A DNA stretch of 64,000 nt, from positions 62,001-126,000 of the forward strand of contig JAUXUL010000001.1 of assembly GCA_030680795.1 (NCBI GenBank). Direction: 5' to 3'. Both the position numbers and the translations under genes were made by a program. Each line of letters opens with the position of its first letter. Position 1 is the stretch's first letter. Below the pieces are notes generated by a model. It had not been told where the DNA came from. It ran no database searches and saw only the letters and a list, made by a program, of their open reading frames with translations. Shown piece by piece: positions 1 through 13,496 of this stretch. Source of the DNA: Anaerolineales bacterium. Its GTDB lineage: Bacteria; Chloroflexota; Anaerolineae; Anaerolineales; Villigracilaceae.

Positions 1-858
1 AGAGAAATTTTGACTGTGATAGCATTCCAGAGCCCGCGCCTTTTGTGTTTGAATATCCAGGGACATTGACAGCCTCTGCCACTTTACTTGCAGCGGTTTT
101 TTTGCAACAATCTTGCTGGTGACTTCATTTGAGCGTGCCCCAGTCAACCAAAATTTGTTTCCTGTCCACATCATGTACGCCAACAGCCTGGGAGACCTCT
201 GTGGGTGTTGGCCGTAATGTATCCCTGCCGCTAAAAGTGTCAAGGTTGCCAGTGTTCTGTGATCCGAATGAGCATCCTGGGGATGCGGCAAAATGATGGT
301 TGTCGGCTGGAATCCAGTCAATTCTTCCTGAATTAATCTTAGCAATGACATGCCAGTATATTGTGTTACCGGACTATTCAAAGCCTGCTCGGAGCGGTCA
401 AAGCCGGTCGTGGGCGAGCGATAAGGCTGATGTGTGTCCCAATAACGCAGCCAGATGGGAGACAATCCCCGATCCGGGAAGCCCCAGAAGCGGATTTGTG
501 CCAGGTTAAGTCCCAAAAAAATCAAGGCGTTCAGGCTTTCCTGTTGACGGATGGCTGCCATGTCCCGGAAATGTTGCTTTGAGAAAGTATGGGAACCATG
601 AAAAAACGCAGTCGCATAGGATGCGTCCCCGTTGGTCGCTATTGCCACTCGAAGTTTGGACGGAGGATGCGACTTCTGGGATGTTGCAATCACGCCGCCA
701 GCAGCTAAAATTTCGTCGTCTGGGTGCGGAGCTAAGACCAGTATCCGTTCTTCTGGCCCGGGAATCCAAACAGGCATCTCATCCACGCTGTTTGTGTTTC
801 CTGCTGGGGGTGTAATAGATTTTCTCTTGTTCAACATATTTGATCTCTTCGAAAACAT
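1..858 (-). CDS. PIG-L family deacetylase (3' end outside window)
   Basis: The minus-strand frame is open from the ATG at 858 to the window edge. The N-terminal motif PHPDDE falls at about residues 44-49, and a second family motif, HPQDAHSDH, lies near residues 190-200. Both are metal-binding signatures of LmbE/PIG-L N-acetylglucosamine deacetylases (MshB, BshB, PIG-L), which remove acetyl groups from GlcNAc-containing small molecules or glycolipids using zinc. The start codon directly abuts the stop of the upstream glycosyltransferase (859-861), so the two are probably translationally coupled. No signal peptide is seen, so it is probably cytoplasmic. The true substrate is unknown; the GT2 partner suggests a sugar or glycolipid precursor (inference). 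The C-terminus is missing. Confidence 0.85.
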   Translation of the reverse strand, partial: MFSKRSNMLNKRKSITPPAGNTNSVDEMPVWIPGPEERILVLAPHPDDEILAAGGVIATSQKSHPPSKLRVAIATNGDASYATAFFHGSHTFSKQHFRDMAAIRQQESLNALIFLGLNLAQIRFWGFPDRGLSPIWLRYWDTHQPYRSPTTGFDRSEQALNSPVTQYTGMSLLRLIQEELTGFQPTTIILPHPQDAHSDHRTLATLTLLAAGIHYGQHPQRSPRLLAYMMWTGNKFWLTGARSNEVTSKIVAKKPLQVKWQRLSMSLDIQTQKARALECYHSQNFS

Positions 859-1587
859 TTAACGGAAAATCCGACGGGTACCATTGGAATATTGCCAAAA
901 ACTATAATTGTTTTTTGTCGGAACAACTACAGCCATAATCTGGCGATACATTTGCCAGCGGCTTTTCATTCCGGCCATGCCATTTCGTTTTTGTTCCTTC
1001 ATGCGATGGGTAACGCCCTGCCAAATAATTTTTCGCACGCGCCATTCCTGTCGTCTGGCATGAACGGTCAATCCAATTTCGACACCATAACGTGTGCCAG
1101 CTAACGGCATCAGAACCTCCTCGGCTTCTGTTCTACGCAAACAGCGCTGTCCCGTGAGATATGGAGCAACACGATGAGATGCGTCGGTCAATAAGCCGCC
1201 ACGCCGAAAAACAGCGATCGTCATTTCGCACTCATTGTTTTCGAAAGGTAAATAAAGTTCTCGTAAATGATTTTCCGATATTTTCAAAAGGTCGGCATCC
1301 AGGAACATGACAATGTCTGTCTGCAAGGCGCGCACACCAGCCAGCATGGCGCCCGCTTTGCCTTGATTTTCAGGAAGACGCAAGGCAAGCACGCGCGCAT
1401 CATGATCTGCAACTTGTTCCGCAATAGAAAGAGTCCCATCCGTGGAGCCATCATCCACGACAACAATCTGCTTGAGCCAATTGACAGCACAGACTGTATC
1501 CAGCACAGCGCGTAGATTTGTTGCTTCGTTGAAAGCAGGAATGACGACCCCGACAGTCAGCCCTTCCTTTTGAGTTTTGTATTTCAC
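859..1587 (-). CDS. Glycosyltransferase family 2 protein
   Basis: This is a GT-A fold transferase. VVIPAFNE opens the protein, followed by VVVDDGSTDGT (about residues 43-53) and the metal-binding DAD in MFLDADLL (about 97-99). It has no membrane-spanning segment, unlike the dolichol-phosphate mannose synthase-type relatives that carry C-terminal helices. I prefer the GTG at 1587 because GAGGTG sits just upstream; an in-frame ATG at 1599 has no visible Shine-Dalgarno. The gene directly precedes the PIG-L deacetylase, which suggests that a sugar is transferred and then N-deacetylated (inference). A promoter with ACTTCAT direct repeats lies upstream at 1652-1685. Donor and acceptor cannot be told from sequence. 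Confidence 0.88.
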   Translation of the reverse strand: MKYKTQKEGLTVGVVIPAFNEATNLRAVLDTVCAVNWLKQIVVVDDGSTDGTLSIAEQVADHDARVLALRLPENQGKAGAMLAGVRALQTDIVMFLDADLLKISENHLRELYLPFENNECEMTIAVFRRGGLLTDASHRVAPYLTGQRCLRRTEAEEVLMPLAGTRYGVEIGLTVHARRQEWRVRKIIWQGVTHRMKEQKRNGMAGMKSRWQMYRQIMAVVVPTKNNYSFWQYSNGTRRIFR

Positions 1588-1651
1588 GGCGCACCTCATA
1601 GATTATGGTTACGGTTCGAATGGCTTGGCTTCATAAAACATGTCGATACTT

Positions 1652-1696
1652 ATCTTATCCTCCCAAGATGAAGTTGCGATGAAGTTTGATTTAAAA
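1652..1696 (-). promoter_or_regulatory. Direct-repeat activator promoter for GT2/PIG-L
   Basis: Read on the minus strand, ACTTCAT (1679-1685), 4 bp, ACTTCAT (1668-1674), then exactly 10 bp, then a -10 hexamer TAAGAT (1652-1657). The repeat period is 11 bp, as in Pho-box-type OmpR/PhoB operators, and the repeats occupy the -35 position. A possible third, poor repeat lies at 1690-1696. The same layout recurs at three other gene-linked promoters in the first 5 kb and at one orphan site. Confidence 0.7.
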
Positions 1697-1700
1697 AGAG

Positions 1701-1727
1701 AACGCCCCCGGTTTGTCCGGGGGCGTT
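1701..1727 (-). terminator. Rho-independent terminator of the acidic protein gene
   Basis: An 11-bp perfect stem (1701-1711 with 1717-1727, GC-rich core CGCCCCCGG) has a 5-nt loop. In minus-strand orientation it is followed by a run of T (CTCTTTTT). It lies 16 bp after the stop of the small secreted acidic protein. Confidence 0.85.
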
Positions 1728-1742
1728 TTAGTGAGGAGGAAA

Positions 1743-2069
1743 TTACGGGGCAGCTGGGGCTTCGACTTCGGACGCTTCCACGCCGTTATCTGGGCCGCTT
1801 TGATCACCGACTTCTTCCTGGACATTGTCGGTATCCGCCGCGCCATCAGGTTGACCATCTTCGACCTGCTCGCCGCATTGCAGTTCAACGGTGTCGGTAT
1901 CTTCGGCGGATGCTACTTCCGTGCCATCCGCTTCATCCTGTGCACAGGCATCTGCCTGAGTAACAGGAGCCTGCGAACCCTTTGCAAAAGCCTTCATACT
2001 AATGACGCCCATTGCGCCCACAACGAGCAGGGCAATGGCAGCCATTGCAACAAAACGATTGATTTTCAT
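1743..2069 (-). CDS. Small secreted acidic protein, function unknown
   Basis: A protein of 108 residues. The N-terminus has a basic start (MKINR) and a hydrophobic stretch to about residue 22, with a probable signal-peptidase site near AFAKG, so it is likely exported. The mature part is strongly acidic (many Asp/Glu, almost no Lys/Arg), has two cysteines and ends in a Pro/Ala/Glu tail; no known domain is recognised. Acidic mature proteins of this kind could bind cations, but that is inference. An AAGGAG ribosome site lies 6 nt before the ATG. It has its own direct-repeat promoter (-10 at 2125-2130) and a strong terminator (1701-1727), so it is a stand-alone unit. Overlapping plus-strand frames lack these signals. 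Confidence 0.75.
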   Translation of the reverse strand: MKINRFVAMAAIALLVVGAMGVISMKAFAKGSQAPVTQADACAQDEADGTEVASAEDTDTVELQCGEQVEDGQPDGAADTDNVQEEVGDQSGPDNGVEASEVEAPAAP

Positions 2070-2124
2070 TTTTTACTCCTTTTTGATATGGTGTCGGCAC
2101 AAAATTGCGCTAATCACAATTTTC

Positions 2125-2169
2125 ATTATAGGTGCTCATAATGAAGTAACCATGAAGCGAGAATGAAAG
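2125..2169 (-). promoter_or_regulatory. Direct-repeat activator promoter for the acidic protein
   Basis: On the minus strand three repeats with an 11-bp period are visible: CTTTCAT (2163-2169), GCTTCAT (2152-2158) and ACTTCAT (2141-2147). Ten bp follow, then a perfect -10 TATAAT (2125-2130). This is the clearest member of the shared promoter family. The expected transcript start is about 45 nt upstream of the ATG. Confidence 0.78.
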
Positions 2170-2193
2170 ACAGTGGCCAAACGCATGGACTCT

Positions 2194-2238
2194 TTTTCAA
2201 CCGGACTTCATGTTTACTTCATCTTTGCCCGCTACAAT
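2194..2238 (+). promoter_or_regulatory. Direct-repeat activator promoter for the ABC-2 operon
   Basis: TTTTCAA (2194-2200), ACTTCAT (2205-2211) and ACTTCAT (2216-2222) follow an 11-bp period, then 10 bp, then -10 TACAAT (2233-2238). It is back-to-back with the divergent minus-strand promoter at 2125-2169, so one regulator could drive both directions. The leader to the ABC ATPase start is about 125 nt and holds no other recognisable element. Confidence 0.75.
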
Positions 2239-2369
2239 TAACCCAATCAATAAAATCTGCCGTCCACTTTCATATATGCTGGTGCGGATCAAGTTTACAC
2301 TAAGGATCAATGGACAAACCTCAGAGTAACTGACAATAGGCGCTTATTCAGAAAAAAAAGAGTTTGCAG

Positions 2370-3362
2370 ATGAGTCAATCTAAAGCATTAAATTCCCCGT
2401 CTCAGGTATTGCTGGCCGAAGACTTGCGAAAGTCTTATAGACGCAGACCGGCGCTTCGTGGATTATCATTCTCACTACAGGCTGGTCGTATTCTTGGTTT
2501 CCTTGGACCCAACGGCGCGGGGAAAACAACAGCGATCCGTATTCTTACAACCATTCTGGAGTCTGATTCAGGCATCTTCTTTGTAGATGGTATTAGTTCC
2601 GAATATCCTCAAAGAATTCGAGGCAAAATTGGCGTTCTTCCAGAGAGTTTGGGGTTTCCCAAGCAGATCACAGGTATCGAGCTCTTAACATACTTCGGCC
2701 AGCTTTATGGTCGCACAGAAAATGAAGCTAGGACACACAGCGCGGAACTTCTTGAAGAAGTTGGTCTTCAGGAACGAGCAAATTCTTTGGTTGGCACATA
2801 TAGTCGCGGGATGCGGCAAAGACTGGGTATTGCTCGCGCGCTCATCAACGATCCAACAGTTGTTTTCCTTGACGAACCTACTCTGGGATTGGATCCTCGC
2901 GGTCAACAGGAGCTTCTCCTGCTGGTGCAGAAAATTGCACGTGAGCGATACGCTGGCGTAATTTTATGCAGTCACCTGTTATCAGAGATCGAAGATATTT
3001 GCGATGATGTGGTCATTTTGATGTCGGGCCAGATCATCGCTTCAGGCTCCGTTACGGAAGTTGTTCAACATTCCAAACAAAATATGCTTCGCGTTCACAT
3101 TCCCGGCTCTTTCGTTTTAGACGCCCAACGGACGCTTGAAGCTCTGTCGCATATCAAGAGAGTATCTTCAGGAACTGGAACAGCTGGCTGGCTGGCGGTT
3201 GAACAGGATCATTCGACTGACGGTGCTTCTCCCAAAGAACAACCCGACAATAACAGGATTCTGGAAGCGTTGATTCGCGCGGGAATTCCAATCCTGAGTT
3301 ACGAATCCGAAGGTGGGTTGAAGGATGTTTTCCTACAGTTGACAGATGAGGTGATCAAATGA
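2370..3362 (+). CDS. ABC-2 type transporter ATP-binding protein
   Basis: A cytoplasmic ATPase of 330 residues that powers the following permease. Visible motifs: Walker A GPNGAGKTT (46-54), signature YSRGMRQR (about 144-151; SRG replaces SGG, as is common in ABC-2 ATPases), Walker B VVFLDEP (164-170) and a switch His in ILCSHLL. A C-terminal extension of about 90 residues follows the nucleotide-binding domain, typical of the CcmA/NatA/DrrA group. The ATG at 2370 is chosen; an in-frame TTG at 2364 is possible. Its end overlaps the permease start by 4 nt (ATGA). The substrate is unknown; this subfamily exports drugs, lipids, sodium or peptides. Confidence 0.92.
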   Translation: MSQSKALNSPSQVLLAEDLRKSYRRRPALRGLSFSLQAGRILGFLGPNGAGKTTAIRILTTILESDSGIFFVDGISSEYPQRIRGKIGVLPESLGFPKQITGIELLTYFGQLYGRTENEARTHSAELLEEVGLQERANSLVGTYSRGMRQRLGIARALINDPTVVFLDEPTLGLDPRGQQELLLLVQKIARERYAGVILCSHLLSEIEDICDDVVILMSGQIIASGSVTEVVQHSKQNMLRVHIPGSFVLDAQRTLEALSHIKRVSSGTGTAGWLAVEQDHSTDGASPKEQPDNNRILEALIRAGIPILSYESEGGLKDVFLQLTDEVIK

Positions 3363-4792
3363 ATGACAAGGCTATTCACTCGAATGAAAATCAAATTGTT
3401 GGTAATAGGCAGGGTAAATCGTCGAACCGTAAATTACCTGCGTGGAAGATCGTATTCAAAAGAGAACTGACAGAGTTGTGGATTTGGGGAAAAGGGATCT
3501 ATCTTATGTTGTTCTATAGCATCTTCCTTGGGGTCTCCTCATTTGTGTTTGCATCCAACAATGAATTAAGCCTGATGCCTCCAAGAGAGATGATGTATCT
3601 GACACTTTCAAACGCCATCACTGTCAGCTTATTCATAGCCTTGATTATTGGTGCGGACAGCTTCAGCGGTGAGCGGGAGCGCTCGACTCTTGAGGCGCTC
3701 CTTTTAACGCCTGCCAACCGCAGGCAAATTGTCCTTGGCAAGTTCCTTGCATCCATTTCATTATGGCCTCTGGCTTACCTTATTACCATTCCATTTGTAG
3801 TTTTACTGTCACAGGGCAACAATATATTGGTTACCGCGCTTCTAACTGGCGCTTTTTTGGGGACATTGCTTTCCCTGGCGTTTACGGGTTTTGGAATGCT
3901 TGTGAGTATCTGGTCTAATTCGAACAGGACCAGTTTATTCGTGAGTCTGACCGTTTATCTTCTATTCCTGCTCCCGGTGCAATTTCCGGGAGGCGCACAG
4001 ACGGGAACAATGGGTAGACTTCTCAAGCAATTAGATCCGTTAGAAGGGGCGGACCATTTCCTTGAGAAGATCATCGTAAATAACAGGACTGTGGGAGAGG
4101 TTCTGCCTTTTCTTTGGGCGTCGGTCATCTTTGCGGTGCTTATCTTCGTACTCCTTTTCCTGTTCGCCGCACCGCGTCTAAATCTCGACGGAGGCATACC
4201 TGTTAAAATTCGAAAAAATAAAAGCCGCCTGATTGTGACTACCTTATTAGCAATTGGTCTAATAGTTTCGATGGGTATATCTCCTGCCCAGGCTCTCCAA
4301 GACTCGCAAGCACCCTTGCAGATAACTGTTGATATTCAATCCAAGGCTATTAATACGGGGGAGAAACTTGACTTCAATACAACAGTAATAAATTCGGACA
4401 CCACGGCTTCTGCTCCATTGATCGTGGCAATGAACATTATCAATCTTGATGCAAATGGAGATGTAGTTGACCCTGAGGATTGGTCGCCACAGCGGACTCA
4501 ATATATAGTGCCTTTGGACGCGGGACAATCTGCCAGCCAAACCTGGACCATCAACCCGATTTTGGGAGGCAACTATATGATGTATATGGTGGTGATTCCT
4601 GAGCCTTCCGATCAGGGGTCCACCAGTCAACCCGTTGCAAGTTCTGGCATCCACTTGACTGTACAAGCGGTCACCAGGCTAAATCCCGGAGGCGTGCTTC
4701 CATTGGCGATCGGGATACCCATCTTATTGATGTTGGGCTTAGTGCTTTTACTATGGTTTAGACGCCGGGGCATAGACAGCGGTAATTCGTAG
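3359..4792 (+). CDS. ABC-2 permease with C-terminal extracytoplasmic domain
   Basis: A protein of 477 residues, permease partner of the upstream ATPase (4-nt overlap). Residues about 45-275 form a six-helix ABC-2 membrane domain, including the cytoplasmic-loop motif GERERSTLEALLLTP typical of this family. After another helix (about 292-312, ending in a signal-peptide-like SPAQA) comes a predicted extracellular beta-rich domain (about 313-445, resembling CARDB/Ig-like folds), then a final helix (about 450-468) and a basic tail (FRRRG). Standard ABC-2 permeases end after six helices, so the extra domain is unusual and may bind a substrate, partner or cell wall (inference). A terminator follows at 4804-4829. 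Confidence 0.88.
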   Translation: MNDKAIHSNENQIVGNRQGKSSNRKLPAWKIVFKRELTELWIWGKGIYLMLFYSIFLGVSSFVFASNNELSLMPPREMMYLTLSNAITVSLFIALIIGADSFSGERERSTLEALLLTPANRRQIVLGKFLASISLWPLAYLITIPFVVLLSQGNNILVTALLTGAFLGTLLSLAFTGFGMLVSIWSNSNRTSLFVSLTVYLLFLLPVQFPGGAQTGTMGRLLKQLDPLEGADHFLEKIIVNNRTVGEVLPFLWASVIFAVLIFVLLFLFAAPRLNLDGGIPVKIRKNKSRLIVTTLLAIGLIVSMGISPAQALQDSQAPLQITVDIQSKAINTGEKLDFNTTVINSDTTASAPLIVAMNIINLDANGDVVDPEDWSPQRTQYIVPLDAGQSASQTWTINPILGGNYMMYMVVIPEPSDQGSTSQPVASSGIHLTVQAVTRLNPGGVLPLAIGIPILLMLGLVLLLWFRRRGIDSGNS

Positions 4793-4803
4793 TTCACCCT
4801 CTC

Positions 4804-4829
4804 AAACACGCTCTTTATGGGCGTGTTTT
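4804..4829 (+). terminator. Rho-independent terminator after ABC-2 operon
   Basis: Stem AAACACGC (4804-4811) pairs with GCGTGTTT (4821-4828), with a loop of about 9 nt, followed by a T-rich tract to 4837. It separates the ABC-2 unit from the next promoter at 4851-4895. Confidence 0.75.
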
Positions 4830-4850
4830 ATTTTTTAATAAGTGAAATAT

Positions 4851-4895
4851 CCGTCATCCTGACTTCATGTGTACTTCATGATGAACTGCTAAGAT
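4851..4895 (+). promoter_or_regulatory. Direct-repeat activator promoter for the MacB-like operon
   Basis: CCGTCAT (4851-4857), ACTTCAT (4862-4868) and ACTTCAT (4873-4879) repeat every 11 bp. Exactly 10 bp lead to the -10 hexamer TAAGAT (4890-4895). The expected start site is about 27 nt before the lipoprotein ATG. Confidence 0.75.
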
Positions 4896-4928
4896 CATCA
4901 TACACAAGAATTATTCCAAGGAGATTCC

Positions 4929-5621
4929 ATGAAATCCAAAATATACTTTCTGCTAATGGCTCTAATCATTCTGGCATTGACAATCACTGCTTGTGGCAGC
5001 AATGCGCCGACTGTTAATAACCCAGCCTTGCCCGGCGGTGAAGGTGGCGGCGGTGGCGAAGGTGGCGGAGGAGGGGAGGGTTCCAGCGGACCAACCCTCA
5101 CCAATCCCGGCGGCCTGCCCGCGGCCCCAGATACTGGCAACTCCAACATTTCCCAACTGGGCGAAGAACGTATGATCAAAGCGGAAGATCCCACCGGGCA
5201 GTTCACGATCCTCTTTGCCGATACCTGGACGCAAGGCTCCGGAAGCACGACCAACATCCTGCGTTCCACACAGGAAGACTGGTTTGCTGAGGCCCAAGCC
5301 ATCTCTGCCAATGGTCAAACACCTGAACAGGCAGCTCAATCTCTGGATGCATCCCAGGTAAATGGTATTCCTGGGTATCAGAAATTAGCCTTGCAAACCG
5401 GCGATATCCATGGATTGCCAGCCGCCAGTTTGATTTATCAATATGAATCCGGCACCAACCCGGTTACCGGTAAGGGGCTACGATTTATTGCCAGCCAGGT
5501 ATTCATTGGTGGCGGCCCGGCAGACCAGTTAGGAAACGTGACCTTTTCTGCTCCTTATTCTTACTATGGAGATTTAAGTGAAGTCTTTGACAAAATTCTG
5601 GCCGGATTTACCTGGAAATAA
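4929..5621 (+). CDS. Lipoprotein with glycine-rich linker, first gene of exporter operon
   Basis: A protein of 230 residues. The signal peptide ends in a lipobox (TITAC followed by GS; Cys about residue 22), so the mature protein should be lipid-anchored outside the membrane. A Gly/Glu linker (GGEGGGGGEG) at about residues 37-50 leads to a globular domain. This domain opens with DPTGQFTILFADTW, a pattern like the PsbP/extracytoplasmic domains seen in other Chloroflexota lipoproteins (weak resemblance only). AAGGAG lies ahead of the ATG. It precedes two ABC ATPases, a large FtsX-type permease and a membrane-fusion protein, so it may be an accessory of that exporter (inference). Confidence 0.8.
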   Translation: MKSKIYFLLMALIILALTITACGSNAPTVNNPALPGGEGGGGGEGGGGGEGSSGPTLTNPGGLPAAPDTGNSNISQLGEERMIKAEDPTGQFTILFADTWTQGSGSTTNILRSTQEDWFAEAQAISANGQTPEQAAQSLDASQVNGIPGYQKLALQTGDIHGLPAASLIYQYESGTNPVTGKGLRFIASQVFIGGGPADQLGNVTFSAPYSYYGDLSEVFDKILAGFTWK

Positions 5622-5632
5622 GGAGTGACACA

Positions 5633-6358
5633 ATGACATTAAGACGAACCCCGCGCGTCATTGATACTCAAGGCGCTCTGCTGTCAGTACGCAACGTCTT
5701 CAAGATTTATAAAGAAAATGATATCGAAACCGTGGCCTTGTATGGGGCTAAATTTGATGTAGCTCCCGGTGAATTTGTTGCCATTCAAGGCCGTTCCGGT
5801 GCCGGCAAGAGCACACTTCTGAACCTGATCGGTGGACTGGACACGCCTAGCGCCGGACAGGTCATTCTTGCAGGGCGTGATATTGCTCATATGAACGAAA
5901 CTGAGCGGGCTGCCTACCGCCGTCAGCATATTGGAATTGTATTCCAGACAGGCAATTTGACACCATTTTTGTCTGCCTTGGAAAATGTGATGCTGCCTAT
6001 GACGTGGAACGGCGTCGCTCCTGCGGATGCTGCAAAGCGGGCGAGTCAACTGCTCAATGATCTAGGATTGGGGGAGCGCATGGACCATAAAGTCAGCCAA
6101 CTCTCGGGCGGCGAAGCGCAGCGAGTTGGCATTGCTATTGCGTTGAGCAATGAACCAGACCTGCTTTTGGCCGACGAGTTGACTGGCGAATTGGATACAG
6201 AGATCACTAACCAGGTGATGGATGTACTTAAGATGTTGCATAAGGATCGCCAGTTGTCCCTTTTGGTTGTGACTCACAACCATCGAGTGGCGGCCCGAGC
6301 GCAACGAGTCCTGCATATCGCTGACGGGATGATTACCGAGGAAAACCACGATGACTAA
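5633..6358 (+). CDS. ABC ATPase (MacB/LolD-like), divergent motifs
   Basis: A protein of 241 residues in the MacB/LolD/FtsE-type family. Walker A is GRSGAGKST (53-61). The signature reads LSGGEAQ (157-163) where LSGGQ is usual, and the Walker B/D-loop reads LLLADELTGELD where the family has ADEPTGNLD. The switch His is in VVTHNH. AAGGAG precedes the ATG. The next gene encodes a second, canonical ATPase overlapping by 8 nt. The pair probably forms an asymmetric heterodimer under the single large FtsX-type permease (inference). The catalytic Glu (E182) is present, so loss of activity is not shown. Confidence 0.92.
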   Translation: MTLRRTPRVIDTQGALLSVRNVFKIYKENDIETVALYGAKFDVAPGEFVAIQGRSGAGKSTLLNLIGGLDTPSAGQVILAGRDIAHMNETERAAYRRQHIGIVFQTGNLTPFLSALENVMLPMTWNGVAPADAAKRASQLLNDLGLGERMDHKVSQLSGGEAQRVGIAIALSNEPDLLLADELTGELDTEITNQVMDVLKMLHKDRQLSLLVVTHNHRVAARAQRVLHIADGMITEENHDD

Positions 6359-7043
6359 TCCAATCTTGAGTACTAAAGATCTTAGTAAAACCTACCCGAT
6401 GAATGGCGTCACCGTCCATGCTTTGCGGGGAGTTAGCATGTTGGTTGAGCGCGGCGAATTTGTCGCTATTGTTGGTCCGAGTGGTTGTGGCAAGAGCACC
6501 CTGCTTAGCATTGCAGGCGGACTGATGACACCTTCCTCCGGGCAAGTTATTATAGACAATCAGGATCTTTCGCAGCTGAGCGAGAGTGAAAGCGCCCGTT
6601 TGCGTCAAAAACATATTGGTTATGTTTTTCAATCCTACAACTTGTTGGTTGATCTGACTGCCATTGAGAATGTTGAATTTCCGATGGTATTAGCTGGCCT
6701 ATCTGAAGACGAGCGCCTTTCTTGGGCGCTGGAATTACTGGAGAGGGTCGGTCTGGCCGACAAAGTCGATTATCTGCCTGACGAACTATCCGGTGGTCAA
6801 AAGCAGCGTGTTGCAATCGCCCGCGCCCTGGCTAATCGGCCTGAGATCATTTTGGCTGACGAACCTACCGGCAACCTCGATAGCGCTACTGCCGCTGAAA
6901 TTATGGACCTTTTGACAGGACTCAACCGGAATGATGGCGTCACATTGGTGATGGTTACTCATGCTCCAGAAGATGCTGCTCGCGCCCATCGCACGATTTC
7001 CATGCGTGATGGACAGATTGAACAATTAACGGAGAAAATATGA
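6351..7043 (+). CDS. ABC ATPase (MacB/LolD-like), canonical
   Basis: A protein of 230 residues. Walker A is GPSGCGKST (42-50), the signature is LSGGQKQRVAIARAL, Walker B and D-loop are ILADEPTGNLD, and the switch is VTHAPED. All match the lipoprotein-release/MacB exporter family, which uses ATP to drive mechanotransmission rather than classical transport. It overlaps the upstream ATPase by 8 nt and the downstream permease by 4 nt (ATGA), so the three are made together. Confidence 0.94.
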   Translation: MTNPILSTKDLSKTYPMNGVTVHALRGVSMLVERGEFVAIVGPSGCGKSTLLSIAGGLMTPSSGQVIIDNQDLSQLSESESARLRQKHIGYVFQSYNLLVDLTAIENVEFPMVLAGLSEDERLSWALELLERVGLADKVDYLPDELSGGQKQRVAIARALANRPEIILADEPTGNLDSATAAEIMDLLTGLNRNDGVTLVMVTHAPEDAARAHRTISMRDGQIEQLTEKI

Positions 7044-9772
7044 TGCCTTATCTAACCTATGCCCTACAGCTCACCTTACGCAATAGGCGTCGGACACTGA
7101 CTTATCTTTTCGGTTTGGTGTTAGCGGTCGGACTTTTCTCCGGCATCCTCTTTTTTGTGGACGCCTCGATGAGCAAGATGACTCAATCGGCTGTCAAGCC
7201 CGTAGCTGTAGATATGCAAATACGCTCAACTCTTGCGTATCCTGATATGAAACCGGTCAGTGCTGCCCTTGAGGCAGAAGCGTTCGTAACACAAGTCGAG
7301 CCGGTCATTATTGCCGATTTCACCAGTATAAGCGTGCCTCTCAGTGGCCAGGCTACCACAGCCGGCAAGATTTTTGTTTTGCGACCCTCTTATTATGATG
7401 CTTTTGGCGCTTTGCGTATTCTAAGTGGCGAAGCGAATTCTTCAGGTGTACTGATCAGTCAGGCAACTGCAAATGACTTGGGAGTATCCATTGGCGATTC
7501 CATCGCGGTTAATATTGATCAGATCGCTGCACCGTATATTGCTCAAGTAACAGGGATCGTGGACCCAACGAATGCATACTTTCTCTTCGCGTCTACAGAC
7601 CCTGCACATGAAGGTGAATACAACCCGGTCCCGTATGATTTGTTCATCACCCCAGATCTTTGGGAAGCAGATCTGGCAGTGTCTCTGACCAATCCCCCTG
7701 CTCCCAATGATCTTAATATCAAACCGATTCCAGCACAGAAGCCTCAATATGAACTGCAAATTGAAACAGATCACAGCCTGCTCCCATCTGACCCAGCCAA
7801 AGCCACTCTTTTCGTAGATATTCTGCGGCGAGGCATTGAAAAGAAATTCCCAGGTGAAATTAAGATAGCCAATAATCTGGCCGATGCTTTGAAGAAGGCC
7901 AAATCAGATGTGCTCTGGGCGAAGCTGCTCTTCCTCTTCCTGGGCATGCCTGGTGTGGCTTTGGCTGCTTACCTCTCAAAATATGCTACAGATCTACTTA
8001 CAGGCCCGCAACGGCAGGAAATTGGACTGCTGCGCGCGCGTGGCTTGACCCCGCATCAGATTATGTTGACGATGGGCCTTGCCAGCCTCTTCATTGCCTT
8101 GGCAGGAACGATTCTCGGATTGCTGGGAGGTTTGGGTACAACTGCTGCTTTGTTCGGTTTTGGCGCAATCGCTCCAAGTGTGTTGGGCGCCTATGCTCGT
8201 TCGGCATTCTATGCATTCGGAGCCGGCCTGCTTCTGACCGGAGCGGCTACTTATCTGCCAGTGCATGCTACCTTGAACCGAGAGATCTCTCAGGAACGTC
8301 GCCAGACCGAACACGAAGCCAAGCCACCTTTCTGGGCGCGCGCCTATCTGGATGTGATTAGTCTCGTCGTTGCAGGGATTATTTTCTGGATCATGCGAAA
8401 CCCTACAACAGGTATCGGATTCCAACCTGTAGAGGCAGCCGAAGGCAGTACTCTATCACTGGGTTTCTTTGTCTTCCTGGCCCCCTTCTTCCTTTGGGTT
8501 GGCCTGACCCTGTTTCTCAGCCGGATCCTTGCCGGAGGTGTCAGCCGTGGGGCAGTTGCCATCCAAAAAATGTTGTGTGCGATCTTTGGAGATTTGGGGT
8601 TTATGGCAGGCAGAAGCATAACCCGCCGCGCGCCCAAGATCGCTTCGGCGGTTGTGATTGTGTCTCTGGCACTATCATTTGGGATCAGCCTTAGTATCTT
8701 CATCCACACCTATCAAGTACAAAAAGCAATCGATGCGCGTTTCGGCTTAGGATCGGATGTCAAGGTGACCATTGCTAGCGGCATTCGCCAACAACCGGCT
8801 GCCTTTGCACAAAAGATCGAGCAGGTACTAGGTGTAACAGCAGCCTCGCCGGTACAATATACCCAGGCATATGTCGGCTCCAGCCTGCAGACTGTTTTCG
8901 GAATCGACCCACAATCCTACGCAGTGGTTTCTGAATTGCCTGACAGCTTCTTTGTCAATACGAGCGCTACTCAGGCAATGACTGATTTGTCTAACGTGCC
9001 TAATGGTGTGTTGGTTAGCGAGGAAATGGCAAAATCTTATGACATTTTGCCGGGTGATCCAATCATCATTCGTCTGCTGAACACCACGAATGTAAATGGT
9101 CCCATGACTGAAACTCGTCTTCAGGTGGTTGGGGTGATCCGTTTCTTCCCAACAGATTCGAAAGATGCTTTCCTGGTGATGAATCAGTCCTTCATGCAGA
9201 ATGTCACTCGTAATGACAAGATTAGCTATTTTTTGGTGCGCACCTCCGCCTCACCCCACGATGTCGCAACTCGCATTCAGGAAGCGCTGGGCTCTCAGGT
9301 ATCTCTGCAAACAGAGGATATTGATACAGCTATCCTGGCATTGGGTAGTTCGATGACCAGCCTGAACCTACAAGGTTTGGGTAATATTGAGCAGGGTTAC
9401 AGCGTGATCATCATCTCCCTTGGATTGATGATTTTCCTGCTCTCGATGATCTATGAGAGAGCCAAAGAATTTGGCGCAATGCGCGCGGTTGGAGCATCCA
9501 TCCGCCAGATCGAGCGTGTTTTGTGGTCTGAGTCTCTTACGGTCGGCGTCTTGAGTGTCTTGATTGGGAGCATCATTGGACTTCCATTAGGCCGTGTATT
9601 TGTTTCCCTTCTCAAAGTGCTCTACAAGATCCCGCCAACGGGTATCGCAATCCCATGGGTTGCATTACTTGGCTTACTATTTTTGGTGCTGTCGGGAATG
9701 GTTGTCGCAACGTTCTTTGCCAGCCGCCGCTTAGCTCGCATGGACATCGCGGAGGTATTGCGAGAATTATAA
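7040..9772 (+). CDS. FtsX/MacB-type ABC permease
   Basis: A protein of 910 residues, about the size of tandem two-module FtsX/LolCE-like permeases. It has an N-terminal helix (about 18-40), a large extracytoplasmic domain (about 45-280), a helix cluster (about 285-455), a second N-terminal-like helix (about 530-560) with a second extracytoplasmic domain, and a C-terminal FtsX domain with three helices (about 785-905). The C-terminal sequence EFGAMRAVGASIRQI is the conserved FtsX coupling motif; EIGLLRARGLTPHQI is the matching motif of the first module. It therefore carries two membrane modules in one chain and could pair with both upstream ATPases. The substrate may be a peptide, lipid or lipoprotein (unknown). 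Confidence 0.92.
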   Translation: MMPYLTYALQLTLRNRRRTLTYLFGLVLAVGLFSGILFFVDASMSKMTQSAVKPVAVDMQIRSTLAYPDMKPVSAALEAEAFVTQVEPVIIADFTSISVPLSGQATTAGKIFVLRPSYYDAFGALRILSGEANSSGVLISQATANDLGVSIGDSIAVNIDQIAAPYIAQVTGIVDPTNAYFLFASTDPAHEGEYNPVPYDLFITPDLWEADLAVSLTNPPAPNDLNIKPIPAQKPQYELQIETDHSLLPSDPAKATLFVDILRRGIEKKFPGEIKIANNLADALKKAKSDVLWAKLLFLFLGMPGVALAAYLSKYATDLLTGPQRQEIGLLRARGLTPHQIMLTMGLASLFIALAGTILGLLGGLGTTAALFGFGAIAPSVLGAYARSAFYAFGAGLLLTGAATYLPVHATLNREISQERRQTEHEAKPPFWARAYLDVISLVVAGIIFWIMRNPTTGIGFQPVEAAEGSTLSLGFFVFLAPFFLWVGLTLFLSRILAGGVSRGAVAIQKMLCAIFGDLGFMAGRSITRRAPKIASAVVIVSLALSFGISLSIFIHTYQVQKAIDARFGLGSDVKVTIASGIRQQPAAFAQKIEQVLGVTAASPVQYTQAYVGSSLQTVFGIDPQSYAVVSELPDSFFVNTSATQAMTDLSNVPNGVLVSEEMAKSYDILPGDPIIIRLLNTTNVNGPMTETRLQVVGVIRFFPTDSKDAFLVMNQSFMQNVTRNDKISYFLVRTSASPHDVATRIQEALGSQVSLQTEDIDTAILALGSSMTSLNLQGLGNIEQGYSVIIISLGLMIFLLSMIYERAKEFGAMRAVGASIRQIERVLWSESLTVGVLSVLIGSIIGLPLGRVFVSLLKVLYKIPPTGIAIPWVALLGLLFLVLSGMVVATFFASRRLARMDIAEVLREL

Positions 9773-9782
9773 AGAGATACCC

Positions 9783-9819
9783 AGTATTTCACTGTGAGCC
9801 CAGATCCACATGAAATACT
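9783..9819. repeat. Inverted repeat between permease and adaptor genes
   Basis: AGTATTTCA (9783-9791) is mirrored by TGAAATACT (9811-9819), a perfect 9-bp inverted repeat 19 bp apart. There is no T-run, so it is not a standard terminator. It may be an mRNA processing or stabilising hairpin separating the permease from the adaptor gene. Confidence 0.4.
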
Positions 9820-9897
9820 AGACTTCTATTCTGCATAAGAATATTCCATGTGGACATCCCCCGAATGAAACTGTGTATCAGTGAAAGGAAGACAACA

Positions 9898-11346
9898 ATG
9901 TTTTCGAAATTAAATAAAAAGCACTATCTAATTGCTCTCAGTGTAATTCTCATTCTCAGCGCGGCTGGCTTTGCATATTACAAACTAGCCTACCTTCCAG
10001 CACAAGCACGAGCTGCTGATTCTTCTCGCTCGCAAATGACTCAAACCGCGATTGTGCAGCAAGGGAATCTGGCTGTCTATGCCCGCGGCACTGGTGCGTT
10101 ATTTGCATTGAATGAAATAAAACTTGGATTTGGAAGAAGTGGTCCCATTGCTGACCTCAAAGTCCAGGTTGGCGATAAGGTACACATGGGTGATGTACTG
10201 GCTGTTCAGAGCAACCGCGAACAATTCGAGGCCGCTGTCGCAGCAGATAAACTTGCAGTATTATCTGCCAAACAAGAACTTGAGAAACTCTACGACGAAG
10301 CCGATATCTTTTCCGCCCAGGCCAAAATTGATTTGGTTAGGGCTAAGGCTGCATTAACTATAGCGGAACGCAAATGGAAAACTTTCCAAGGGGCAATGCA
10401 GATTGATCCAATATTAGGAAAAAAGCACTTAGCATCGGCATGGAAAGACCTTGTAGCAGTGCGCGATGAATACTATGCCAAGAGTCGCAATGCCTCGCCA
10501 TCTAGAAAAGCCGAATTAGTAAAAGAACTAAAAAAAGCCGGGAATAGATACCAGAATATTTTATACAAATTGAATGGATTACTGACAGAATCCCAAAAAG
10601 CGCAACATGATGCTGAACTAGACCTAGCTAAGGCCCTCGTACTGCAAGCCGAACGCACATTGGAAAAGGTTAAAGACGGGCCGAACCCTGATAAAGTTGC
10701 TTTGGCAGAACAAACGCTGGCAAGCGCTGAAGCCAATCTTGCGGTTTCCAAAAACCAACTTGACGAATCTCTTGTCATAGCACCAATAGACGGAACCGTT
10801 TTGTCAGTAAAAGCACGAGCAGGGGACGATGTATCTGGACCGTTTATTACAATGGCAGACCTCAGTCAACAGTACCTAAAAATCTCACTAGACGGAACTG
10901 ATATTGGAAAAATCGCTCTGGGTTATAAAGTTGAGGTGATTTTCGATGCACTACCCAATCAGATTTTTACAGGCTACGTCAAACAAATCGATCCCTATTT
11001 GTATACCCCTTCAGGAGAACAGATTTCCAATCAAACCCCAGGCCAAATAACTGTGATTAAGGCGCTTGTAATCCTGGATGAGGGCACGACCCCCATCGAT
11101 AATTTACCACTGGGCATGACCGCTACAGTGAATGTCATTGGGGCTCAAGCTGAAAGGGTTGTCCTTGTTCCCATAGAAGCGCTGCGCGAACAAGCGCCTG
11201 GTAAATATGCTGTTTTCATCATAGAAAACGGCGAACAGAAGTTACGCCTTGTAGAAGTGGGATTGATGGACTTCAGCTTTGCAGAGATAAAGTCTGGACT
11301 CAAGGTTGGCGATGTTGTTGTCACTAGTACCGTGCAGTCCAAATGA
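9898..11346 (+). CDS. Membrane-fusion (HlyD/MacA-like) adaptor protein
   Basis: A protein of 482 residues from the ATG at 9898, preceded by GAAAGGAAG; a GTG at 9850 would add an unlikely extension. A signal anchor lies at about residues 10-30. A lipoyl/barrel-sandwich half (about 45-110) is followed by a long helical hairpin (about 110-275, Lys/Glu/Ala-rich coiled coil with LAEQTLASAEANL), the second lipoyl half (APIDGTVLSVKARAGDDV, about 298-318) and a beta-barrel plus membrane-proximal domain. This is the periplasmic/extracytoplasmic adaptor of MacAB-type exporters. In a single-membrane cell envelope it would bridge membrane and wall rather than reach an outer-membrane channel (inference). 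Confidence 0.9.
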   Translation: MFSKLNKKHYLIALSVILILSAAGFAYYKLAYLPAQARAADSSRSQMTQTAIVQQGNLAVYARGTGALFALNEIKLGFGRSGPIADLKVQVGDKVHMGDVLAVQSNREQFEAAVAADKLAVLSAKQELEKLYDEADIFSAQAKIDLVRAKAALTIAERKWKTFQGAMQIDPILGKKHLASAWKDLVAVRDEYYAKSRNASPSRKAELVKELKKAGNRYQNILYKLNGLLTESQKAQHDAELDLAKALVLQAERTLEKVKDGPNPDKVALAEQTLASAEANLAVSKNQLDESLVIAPIDGTVLSVKARAGDDVSGPFITMADLSQQYLKISLDGTDIGKIALGYKVEVIFDALPNQIFTGYVKQIDPYLYTPSGEQISNQTPGQITVIKALVILDEGTTPIDNLPLGMTATVNVIGAQAERVVLVPIEALREQAPGKYAVFIIENGEQKLRLVEVGLMDFSFAEIKSGLKVGDVVVTSTVQSK

Positions 11347-11621
11347 TGGCTTGACCCAACACATTGTGTGTGACGGAATGTAGAAGTTGACAGATTAATT
11401 TTATGATCTGTCCCCGTTCCAAGAGGAGCAAGGGCTTGTTTATTACATTTTCATCTAGACTTCATTTTGCGAACTTATACTTAGTTCCGACAGGCAAACT
11501 GTCAAATGATTATCTAGGGGAAAATTCATGTCAACCAAAGCTCGTTCCCACAACTGATGGATACAATATTATTGGCATCTCGCCTTTGCCGGCAATAAAA
11601 AAATAGTCAGTGCGCAAATAA
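11347..11621. other. Gene-free stretch holding an orphan operator
   Basis: No convincing gene is seen. It contains the fifth copy of the direct-repeat promoter (11448-11481). A nine-codon reading frame at 11528-11557 follows a purine-rich GGGGAAAA, starts MSTKARSHN and then stops. This could be the decayed start of a lost gene, a leader peptide or a small RNA region. A longer overlapping frame (11403-11606) has no family features and starts upstream of the -10. Confidence 0.4.
11437..11481 (+). promoter_or_regulatory. Orphan copy of the direct-repeat promoter
   Basis: TGTTTAT (11437-11443, weak), TTTTCAT (11448-11454) and ACTTCAT (11459-11465) repeat every 11 bp, then exactly 10 bp, then -10 TATACT (11476-11481). 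The spacing is identical to that of the four gene-linked copies, but no intact gene is found within the following 200 bp on this strand. Confidence 0.65.
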
Positions 11622-11656
11622 AAAGATGGTGCGGATAGAACTCCGCGCCATCTTTC
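11619..11656 (-). terminator. Terminator of the mazEF-like operon
   Basis: AAAGATGG-GCGG (11622-11634) pairs with CCGC-CCATCTTT (11643-11655), one mismatch. On the minus strand it is followed by TTTTTATTT. It lies about 50 nt after the toxin stop. Confidence 0.75.
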
Positions 11657-11706
11657 CATGCAACTCAGTGCGCAGTATTGTCTCCATCCATCAGCAACAA
11701 ATCTTT

Positions 11707-12051
11707 TTATTCCGCGAACATTTCCGTCAGCACAGCAAGCGCTGCTTTTTGAGTCGTAGCGCTGATTGTTCCCAGTTTTTTTACCAATCGAGTTTTATCC
11801 ACCGTTCGTATTTGGTCCAAAACAATTTGCCCATCCTTGCCTTGAAACTTGCATGAAACGCGGGTTGGGTAGGCGAGTCCTTTTGTGTTCATGGGCGCGA
11901 CAAGCACAGTGGCAATATGAGCATTCATTTCATCGGGAGAGATAATAAGGCAGGGACGAGTTTTTTTGATCTCACTGCCGATTGTTGGGTCGAGGTTGAT
12001 CAAATATACTTCAAAACGCTTTGCTACCAATTCCACTCGCTGCGATCCCAT
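11707..12051 (-). CDS. mazF: MazF/PemK-type endoribonuclease toxin
   Basis: At most 114 residues. The sequence carries the MazF signature: FEVYLINLDPTIGSEIKKTRPCLIISPDEMN, where the Arg-Pro-(Cys) motif of the active-site loop and the SPDEMN segment are typical, then VLVAPM and a C-terminal DQIRTVDKTRL motif. MazF toxins cut mRNA at short sequence motifs. The start is uncertain: the ATG at 12051 overlaps the antitoxin by 28 nt, and internal GTG or TTG codons just before VAKRFEV fit homologues better. Downstream is a terminator. It forms an operon with the AbrB-type antitoxin. Confidence 0.9.
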   Translation of the reverse strand: MGSQRVELVAKRFEVYLINLDPTIGSEIKKTRPCLIISPDEMNAHIATVLVAPMNTKGLAYPTRVSCKFQGKDGQIVLDQIRTVDKTRLVKKLGTISATTQKAALAVLTEMFAE

Positions 12052-12281
12052 TGTGTGGATACGGATTCGTCAATTAACTTGTCATCGCCATGTTTTGCCA
12101 TTGCGCGGAATTGCTCATCCCAGCCACGACGCGGGAGCGTGACAGGACGAAGCACAAGCTGTCTGCTCTGGATGACAATCTCCACTTCGTTATTGAATCC
12201 CATTTGCTCGATCAATAACTTGGGCAGGCGCACGCCGCGCGAGTTTCCGATTTTTACGATCTGGGTGTGAACGATATTCAT
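12024..12281 (-). CDS. mazE: AbrB/MazE-type antitoxin
   Basis: A protein of 85 residues. The N-terminal swapped-hairpin DNA-binding domain reads VKIGNSRGVRLPKLLIEQ (about 9-26), followed by EVEIVIQSRQLVLRPV; the C-terminal acidic/Trp-rich tail (WDRSEWNW) would wrap and block the toxin. Its DNA-binding domain usually represses its own promoter. AGGAAAGAG lies before the ATG, and a good sigma-70 promoter lies at 12311-12339. Confidence 0.9.
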   Translation of the reverse strand: MNIVHTQIVKIGNSRGVRLPKLLIEQMGFNNEVEIVIQSRQLVLRPVTLPRRGWDEQFRAMAKHGDDKLIDESVSTQWDRSEWNW

Positions 12282-12310
12282 ATTGTTTTCTCTTTCCTAA
12301 ATGTGGTTAC

Positions 12311-12339
12311 ATTGTAAGCACAAGCCGCCAGGCCGTCAA
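12311..12339 (-). promoter_or_regulatory. Sigma-70 promoter of the mazEF-like operon
   Basis: On the minus strand TTGACG (12334-12339), a 17-bp spacer and TACAAT (12311-12316): near-consensus -35 and -10 boxes, about 30 bp before the antitoxin ATG. Confidence 0.75.
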
Positions 12340-12485
12340 CCCGTTTTTGTTTCGCGGGCGTATTACGGGTTACAAGTTGCAAAGCCGCCAGTTTTTTGAA
12401 ATTGCCAGGTTTTTAAGGACCATTGAATAAATCTTGGTGTTCTTCGTTTATTGGCGGTTAATTCCGTCTACGTGATGTCCCTATT

Positions 12486-13496
12486 TCAACAGCCTGAATT
12501 TCCAAACTCATCCACAGGCATACCAAAGGCTTCAAAGACTGGTGTTCCATCCCATTCGGGCGGAAGAGGCAGGCCGAGCGCAAAGGCGGCGGTGGCGGCC
12601 GTGTCCATGGTGTAAACCTGCGTGGATAGTTTACCTGGGGCAATGCGCGGGCCGCTGATGATCCATGGGATGGTCATATCTTCGGGCAGGTCTGTGCCGT
12701 GCGTGGTCTCATGCCCGCCGTGATCGGAGGTGACGATGATCATGGTGCTTTCGTACATGCCCTTATCCTTCAAGGCTTGGATGAGCAGGCCCAACCCTTT
12801 GTCCTCGCGCCCATAAACCTCCAATTGCGCACGCGACATCCAGCCATTCTTATGTCCCTCAATATCGCTATCCGCAAAATGTACGAACATCAAGCCGAAG
12901 CCTGTATTGATCTGCGCCAGGGCCAGTCTTAAGACTGTGGTTGAATCTTCGATCTTATCCGTCCTATCCACAAAATCAAAATAATCCGTGCTGGCTGGTT
13001 CGGTGACCTGACGCAGTTTTTCCTTGCCAACCACCATCACCGTCCGCATACCTGCTGCGTGAGCAAGATCAAAAATATCGACTCCGAGAGCGAATCCATT
13101 TTGCGGCACATATTCATTCCAGCGGACGATGTGCTTTGCAGGACAGGTGCCCGCCAGCATCGAAGCATGAGATGGCAAGGTCAGGCTCGGCATGATGGTC
13201 TGTGCGCTCAATGTGAATGCGCCGTTTTGCATCAAACTCAGCAGATTGACCATATTCGCCGCGGCAATTGCATCGGGGCGCAAGCCGTCAAAACTGACGA
13301 TCAAGACCCGCTCCACACTGGGTAAGGGTGTAGGCGTGATCGTCGGAAAGGGCGTCTCGGTGGGCGGTGGGGTACTGCTCGGGCTGGGAATCACCAACCG
13401 CGTAGGAGCAAGTGTCGGCGGCGGGGGTGAGGCGAATGATCCGCAGGATGGCAGAAAGATGATGAGCAGAGTCAAATGCAAAATGCGCTGAATCAT
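12486..13496 (-). CDS. Lipoprotein of the type I phosphodiesterase/alkaline phosphatase family
   Basis: A protein of 336 residues. A signal peptide ends in lipobox LPSC-G (Cys about 18), followed by a Pro/Ser/Thr-rich linker (about 20-60). The catalytic domain shows metal and nucleophile motifs of nucleotide pyrophosphatase/phosphodiesterases: VSFDGLRPDA (first Asp), SLTLPSHASML (nucleophile Thr), HFADSDIEGH (Asp and His) and TSDHGGHETTHG (Asp-His and His). It should hydrolyse phosphodiester or phosphate-ester bonds outside the cell with two zinc ions; the substrate is unknown. It starts 2 bp after the hutU stop, so it is probably read from the same transcript, though no functional link is obvious. 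Confidence 0.87.
   Translation of the reverse strand: MIQRILHLTLLIIFLPSCGSFASPPPPTLAPTRLVIPSPSSTPPPTETPFPTITPTPLPSVERVLIVSFDGLRPDAIAAANMVNLLSLMQNGAFTLSAQTIMPSLTLPSHASMLAGTCPAKHIVRWNEYVPQNGFALGVDIFDLAHAAGMRTVMVVGKEKLRQVTEPASTDYFDFVDRTDKIEDSTTVLRLALAQINTGFGLMFVHFADSDIEGHKNGWMSRAQLEVYGREDKGLGLLIQALKDKGMYESTMIIVTSDHGGHETTHGTDLPEDMTIPWIISGPRIAPGKLSTQVYTMDTAATAAFALGLPLPPEWDGTPVFEAFGMPVDEFGNSGC

Follow-up and report, generated by a model that had tools for sequence, protein, structure and literature searches.

Promoters and genes at the left end of the window

Here, we describe a set of promoters with a shared tandem-repeat operator in an Anaerolineales bacterium, together with the adjacent two-component system that very probably controls them. 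The window is the whole stretch of DNA that was analysed, 64,000 nucleotides of a 3.45 Mb draft genome (C35:62001-126000). Its left end carries genes for a glycosyltransferase, a small acidic secreted protein and two exporters:

859..1599, minus strand: family-2 glycosyltransferase (PF00535)
1743..2069, minus strand: small acidic secreted protein of 108 amino acids, no Pfam match
2364..3362, plus strand: ABC-2 exporter ATPase (PF00005; best NCBIfam model DrrA, below the cut-off of that model)
3359..4792, plus strand: ABC-2 permease with a long C-terminal extension (PF12679)
4929..5621, plus strand: putative lipoprotein, recognised by eye, no family match
5633..6358, plus strand: LolD/MacB-type ABC ATPase, below the curated NCBIfam cut-offs
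6351..7043, plus strand: second ABC ATPase of the MacB operon (PF00005)
7040..9772, plus strand: MacB/FtsX-type permease (PF02687, PF12704)
9850..11346, plus strand: HlyD-type membrane fusion protein (PF16576)

Four promoters precede these genes, each consisting of two half-sites and a -10 box:

1668..1685, minus strand: tandem half-sites ACTTCAT-N4-ACTTCAT, -10 box TAAGAT at 1652-1657, upstream of the glycosyltransferase gene 859-1599
2141..2158, minus strand: tandem half-sites GCTTCAT-N4-ACTTCAT, -10 box TATAAT at 2125-2130, upstream of the acidic secreted protein gene 1743-2069
2205..2222, plus strand: tandem half-sites ACTTCAT-N4-ACTTCAT, -10 box TACAAT at 2233-2238, upstream of the ABC-2 exporter genes
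4862..4879, plus strand: tandem half-sites ACTTCAT-N4-ACTTCAT, -10 box TAAGAT at 4890-4895, upstream of the lipoprotein/ABC ATPases/MacB-FtsX/HlyD operon

The original prediction, made from the letters of the stretch, had described these promoters as carrying paired (A/G)CTTCAT elements 11 bp apart and 10 bp from the -10 box, and all of its coordinates proved exact. Without mismatches, the pattern RCTTCATN4ACTTCAT occurs in the window at these four places only; with up to three mismatches, 27 matches were found, compared with a mean of 11.65 and a largest value of 23 in 100 shuffles.

The architecture of the operator was studied in a collection of 42 sites, which comprises those of related loci, those of the window and those of orphan loci in the genomes G059 and G030. 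Bases that had not been used for the selection are still conserved, namely C at position -16 in 34 sites, A or G at -17 in 39 and T at -9 in 33. A -35 element is lacking: TTGACA matches no better than at random positions, with four of six bases reached in five of the 42 sites and more in none. The sites thus have the features of a class II operator of the OmpR/PhoB type, that is, direct-repeat half-sites 11 bp apart which replace the -35 element at a fixed distance from the -10 box. The third, weaker repeat that had also been proposed can be made out visually at some of the four promoters but is not a clear general feature of the collection. One turn further upstream, the TTCAT core is matched in a mean of 1.98 of five bases, compared with 4.9 for the two real half-sites; this value forms a small local peak over its neighbours (1.24 and 1.33), yet does not stand out from other upstream offsets, which vary between 0.67 and 2.1.

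A regulator bound at this position might also repress, its dimer covering the -35 region and blocking RNA polymerase until a signal releases it. The position is compatible with such occlusion, and some OmpR-type regulators do repress. Promoters without a -35 hexamer, however, should need an activator, and a strictly fixed distance of 10 bp to the -10 box is expected for contact with the polymerase, not for simple blocking. Repression is therefore unlikely, and activation would be the mode of action at these promoters.

The neighbouring regulator and the extent of the proposed regulon

The original prediction had noted that the window itself holds no OmpR-type regulator gene and had suggested a search for one with the same site. 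Indeed, none of the ten own-genome matches listed (E-value up to 1e-30) lies in the window, and such a gene is located 3.8 kb to the left of it, with its own site 38 bp before the ATG. The two genes of this two-component system are:

L019:13461-14153, minus strand: response regulator of 230 amino acids (PF00072 with 114 bits and PF00486 with 94.4 bits, both above cut-off)
L019:12098-13507: histidine kinase with HAMP, HisKA and HATPase_c domains, overlapping the end of the regulator gene downstream

The DNA-binding domain of the regulator aligns gap-free to PhoB, including 1gxp and 3t72, and the protein scores 218.8 with the PhoB equivalog model TIGR02154, below its cut-off of 296.2. The best-scoring NCBIfam models belong to the heavy-metal family, TIGR01387 (CusR/CopR) for the regulator and TIGR01386 (CusS/CopS) for the kinase, yet both scores are below the curated cut-offs (265.5 vs. 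279.2 and 240.3 vs. 292.55). Operators of the CusR type are palindromic. The sensor domain of the kinase, modelled alone, shows a helix-sheet-helix arrangement (pLDDT 76.8, pTM 0.55) with a loose likeness to an integrative WalK model and to extracytoplasmic sensor domains, those of Tlp3, CzcS and WalK, a likeness too weak to name the signal.

Scans of the complete draft genome outlined the extent of the predicted regulon. The exact motif RCTTCATN4RCTTCAT occurs seven times, five times within 8.7 kb of C35 and once each on C22 and C43; the C22 match, which lies inside an ATP synthase gene, and the C43 match have no -10 box at 10 bp. Combined with 10 bp and TAnnnT, the exact motif has five matches, all in C35:58176-66895, which are the four reported window sites and the site before the regulator gene, and the reversed pattern has none. 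With up to two mismatches, the motif gave 26 matches (control, 6), of which eight are located within C35:58176-73481. These are five sites in the window, one of them at position 11448 (see below), and three just to the left of it, which precede the response regulator gene, a DedA-PAP2 gene (ACTTCAC-N4-ATTTCAT, 39 bp from the start) and a first gene for the acidic protein.

A rough longest-ORF (open reading frame) caller placed 13 of the 18 off-cluster matches inside ORFs and three outside; the remaining two were scored at a wrong position. Only one of the 16 scored matches has a start on the same strand within 300 bp, and this match lies in a gene of the ATP synthase alpha/beta family, judged from its position to be atpA. 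Equal occurrence inside genes had been named beforehand as a sign against a regulon; the exact motif with its -10 box does not behave in this way, but the degenerate matches do (13 of 16). A dispersed regulon is unsupported, since the off-cluster matches are degenerate and mostly inside ORFs. The suggestion that the glycan, acidic-protein, ABC-2 and MacB-like genes form one regulon stands for an OmpR/PhoB-type regulon but has to be narrowed to one local cluster of 15.3 kb. It is highly probable that the cluster forms a class II OmpR/PhoB regulon, local and self-activating, controlled by the regulator to the left of the window.

Conservation of the operator and the recognition helix

In the 152 genomes of the family, the motif with 10 bp and TAnnnT has 11 matches (control, 0), and the best kinase matches show a drop in score, from 309 down to 229 bits, beyond the tenth non-self genome. 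The nearest four (G047, G006, G067 and G040) carry a site directly before the regulator gene, exactly 10 bp ahead of the -10 box. Further sites precede the small secreted protein in G047, G006 and G067, the lipoprotein in G006 (in G040, a site with three mismatches) and the ABC-2 ATPase in G040.

The comparison was extended to a class sample of 396 genomes, of which 39, including our own, have a kinase match at an E-value of up to 1e-85, with 44 matches listed. From these, 34 stretches were fetched in addition to four from before, and five weak matches were left out. Altogether 50 regulator loci were considered, five of them named records; L244 has no regulator and that of L247 is truncated, which left 48 upstream regions of up to 300 bp (four are shorter). 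When a dimer site was defined by at most one mismatch in two 5-bp cores, 26 of the 48 regions had one at a spacing of 10 bp. No other spacing between 4 and 19 reached more than four, and 50 shuffles gave a mean of 0.02. Of the two cores, TTCAT had been taken from the window in advance, whereas TCTTA was added only once some upstream regions had been viewed, so that its part of this count is not blind. With TTCAT as the only core, 34 sites at spacing 10 were counted in 20 related loci (250,540 bases, our locus among them), and between 0 and 4 at each of 13 other spacings.

A later phylum sample of 400 genomes yielded eight further loci. The three regulators that share our recognition helix all come from a single family outside the class, and each of them has TTCAT/TTCAT at the 10-bp spacing. 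Among the other five loci, L280 (Arg-Arg) has TTCAT/TTCAT and L276 a TTAAT-like pair, and three, including the Ser-Gly-Tyr regulator of L279, have no site. In total, 17 of 21 regulators with Arg-Asn in the helix, one of which is our own, have the same site before their own gene. They come from ten families, nine of the class or closer and one outside it.

The sites also lie in front of the same kinds of targets, and, as had been anticipated, other genomes such as G040, G059 and G583 have further sites at the 10-bp distance in front of related transport genes. Library scans identified, in G583, PAP2 and, following a lipoprotein, an FtsX permease and an ABC ATPase; in G059, DedA-PAP2 and an ABC ATPase following a similar lipoprotein; and in G040 the ABC-2 exporter. 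The lipoproteins of G059 and G583 are 67% identical to each other. As separate observations, the loci L153 (G059:C313) and L154 (G030:C163) have good-quality sites in front of DedA-PAP2, lipoprotein/ABC and metallophosphatase-like genes, and in L143, L144, L145 and L146 the -10 box starts 12-13 bp before the regulator ATG, so that the regulator mRNA should be nearly leaderless there.

The half-site varies together with the recognition helix of the adjacent regulator. In a tree of the 48 regulators, a group of 19 of our own type stands apart from a group of 14 of the Gly-Tyr type, both starred, and one further Gly-Tyr row, L034, is found elsewhere on a long branch. Residues 188, 196 and 197 were scored against the best site of each locus. 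A site was found for 14 of the 18 Ser-Arg-Asn rows, and it is TTCAT/TTCAT in all 14. The eight Ser-Gly-Tyr rows have five sites, with TCTTA downstream in all five and TTCAT upstream in four; the Thr-Gly-Tyr rows have TCTTA/TCTTA in six of six, and the single Pro-Gly-Tyr row has no site. Across all 15 Gly-Tyr rows, the downstream half-site is TCTTA in each of the 11 sites found and the geometry is unchanged. The rows are related, so the number of independent helix/half-site events is small. For helices with Arg-Tyr or Arg-His, the sites are too scarce for a verdict (TTAAT-like in L245, L254 and L276, TTCAT-like in L250 and L258). The TTAAT-like repeats, which belong to Arg-Tyr at 196/197, occupy the same position and are close to the TTAAG of BqsR.

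In a report on PmrA, the base contacts are given as Thr187, Asn188, Val192, His195 and Asn196 (PMC4660055), which we equated by residue identity with Ser188, Asn189, Val193, Arg196 and Asn197 of our regulator. RstA reads DNA with the corresponding helix and is reported to bind its two half-sites unequally (PMC4117788). The half-site series of these present-day genomes suggests, tentatively and with somewhat less than even confidence, that Arg196-Asn197 may read TTCAT/TTCAT, that Gly196-Tyr197 may go with the hybrid TTCAT/TCTTA, and that an additional difference, Thr for Ser188, may go with TCTTA/TCTTA, the DNA word shifting while the geometry stays locked; all three positions match base-contacting residues of PmrA. 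If true, three residues would rewrite the half-site and the hybrid operators would represent an evolutionary stepping stone. The half-site series and the matching helix residues make a change of OmpR-type specificity testable with three residues and three operators.

Several observations weigh against the proposed regulon and its conservation, in addition to the late choice of the TCTTA core. Four of the 18 Arg-Asn regulators (L232, L237, L241 and L242) have no site within 300 bp, although two of them have one before the preceding gene. The window acidic protein has no PepSY match in Pfam. The window lipoprotein (4929-5621) matches that of G059 only at an E-value of 7e-4 and that of G583 not at all; the operon-heading lipoproteins can thus not be regarded as orthologues in the case of the window, and its lipoprotein shares the role by position and not by clear descent. 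Among 80 named loci of wider OmpR relatives, three have a 7-bp direct repeat at spacing 10 and between 0 and 4 have one at other spacings; in these loci, the 10-bp rule is not seen as a property shared by all close OmpR relatives. The three loci, at six or seven of seven bases, are L033, L045 and L058, the last from Thermosporothrix hazakensis and with TTCAT repeats. In L033, a record titled Propionibacteriaceae, the regulator is 73% identical to ours, has a TTCAT/TTCAT site and is grouped among the relatives of the window genome; it may reflect horizontal transfer or a mis-binned contig.

G030 and G059 have the site and no regulator above 55% identity. Together with the ten regulator matches in our own genome, this would fit a different regulator that binds the motif, the neighbouring two-component system being only one of its targets. 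The site type follows the helix of the adjacent gene product, however, in 14 of 14 Arg-Asn and 11 of 11 Gly-Tyr cases and again in the three new Arg-Asn loci, and sites precede Arg-Asn regulators across the families listed above. We regard this explanation as quite improbable and keep the adjacent regulator as the one that would bind the sites.

In an order sample, finally, there are 20 matches, of which 11 lie outside G000, G006 and G047, only modestly above the three of the reversed control. Together with the degenerate off-cluster matches, mostly inside ORFs, this figure could be taken as a sign of chance or coding bias, as CTTCAT on one strand reads ATGAAG (Met-Lys) on the other and TAnnnT is frequent in AT-rich DNA. 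Against this stand the confinement of all five exact matches with a -10 box in 3.45 Mb to 8.7 kb with none for the reversed control, their intergenic position and correct orientation, and the recurrence of the arrangement before related regulator genes. Chance is hence a negligible explanation compared with a conserved operator.

Proposed mechanism, related systems and minor features

In the mechanism that we propose, the phosphorylated regulator would dimerise and occupy both TTCAT half-sites as a head-to-tail pair on the same face of the helix. Standing in for the absent -35 element, it would contact sigma/RNA polymerase at the -10 box 10 bp away. The regulator would switch on its own operon, raising its own level, and further targets would be the DedA-PAP2 gene, the small acidic secreted proteins, the glycosyltransferase, the ABC-2 exporter and the lipoprotein/MacB exporter. 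The signal may be an envelope, metal or antimicrobial stress, and the small secreted proteins would probably act back on the sensor kinase in the manner of DbfQ in Vibrio cholerae.

A close precedent for the geometry is the Pho box of Escherichia coli, where PhoB, likewise an activator of the OmpR/PhoB type, uses 11-bp direct repeats in place of the -35 element. The second PhoB repeat likewise ends 10 bp before the -10 box. The half-site of the Pho box is CTGTCAT, unlike the TTCAT used here. A head-to-tail arrangement of DNA-binding domains on tandem repeats, here predicted, is also described for PmrA/BasR of Klebsiella; the similarity of the DNA-binding domains is low (E-value 1.7e-8 for 2m87 and 2.3e-7 for 4s04).

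In layout, the regulon is most likely related to the DbfQRS and BqsRS modules. For BqsR (CarR) of Pseudomonas aeruginosa, one report gives the operator TTAAG-N6-TTAAG, with the downstream pentamer over the -35 region, and hundreds of predicted sites across the genome (PMC4682146). Both systems have pentamer repeats 6 bp apart, but in our case the pentamer is TTCAT and the clear sites are found in one cluster. A BqsR counterpart was also sought via L054, a match in P. aeruginosa PA7; by eye, no neighbouring gene resembles PepSY, and 320 bp of this locus show no repeat of this kind. According to a study of DbfQRS in V. cholerae, DbfQ acts on DbfS, PepSY-kinase-regulator neighbourhoods occur in several phyla, and PepSY proteins are encoded beside BqsS (PMC12714742). 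The relatives of our locus resemble this system in having a small secreted PepSY protein, a histidine kinase and a response regulator side by side. Unlike in DbfQRS, the gene for the secreted protein is frequently preceded here by a regulator site of its own, and the window genome has, in place of a PepSY domain, an acidic repeat protein in two gene copies.

The acidic protein of the window is 37% identical over 107 amino acids (E-value 4e-18) to a protein of G583 (L233:8560-9090) that is encoded behind the same kind of site and whose PepSY domain lies beyond the aligned part. PF03413 was found in L144, L147, L148, L149, L233, L235, L240, L273 and L275, and not in the small secreted proteins of L143 and L145. 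PepSY forms occur in G006, G472, G488, G924 and G952, and none in G047 and G067. By its homology to the PepSY protein of L233 and the PepSY forms of relatives, we interpret the acidic protein as a putative relative of the PepSY module that lacks the domain itself. Its two genes (L019:15728-16123 and window 1691-2086) are 90% identical over 397 aligned positions, terminator included; in the copy left of the window, ATA replaces the ATG start, and the promoter sites of both genes lie outside the aligned stretch.

Searches of the open-access literature, judged by titles and the beginnings of abstracts, found no description of such a regulon for this bacterial group. Our analysis thus provides a prediction from sequence of a regulator, its operator, a promoter rule and a regulon for the group, and links the genes for exporters and envelope functions to sensing by a PepSY-type module, a kind recently shown to matter in V. 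cholerae.

A fifth site, which the original prediction does not mention, is found at the end of the exporter genes, facing the end of a gene on the other strand:

11448..11465, plus strand: TTTTCAT-N4-ACTTCAT, followed after 10 bp by the -10 box TATACT at 11476-11481
11707-12051, minus strand: PemK/MazF-type gene (library match), whose end faces the region downstream of the site

No convincing long ORF follows the site, and a scan of window positions 1-12600 with Rfam gave nothing at gathering scores. It may be an orphan promoter or serve a tiny gene or a small RNA. The 194 nt downstream (to 11680) fold strongly (z -3.67). A terminator-like hairpin nearby (one found, 0.8 expected) is on the minus strand, where the PemK/MazF-type gene ends, and may be the terminator of that gene.

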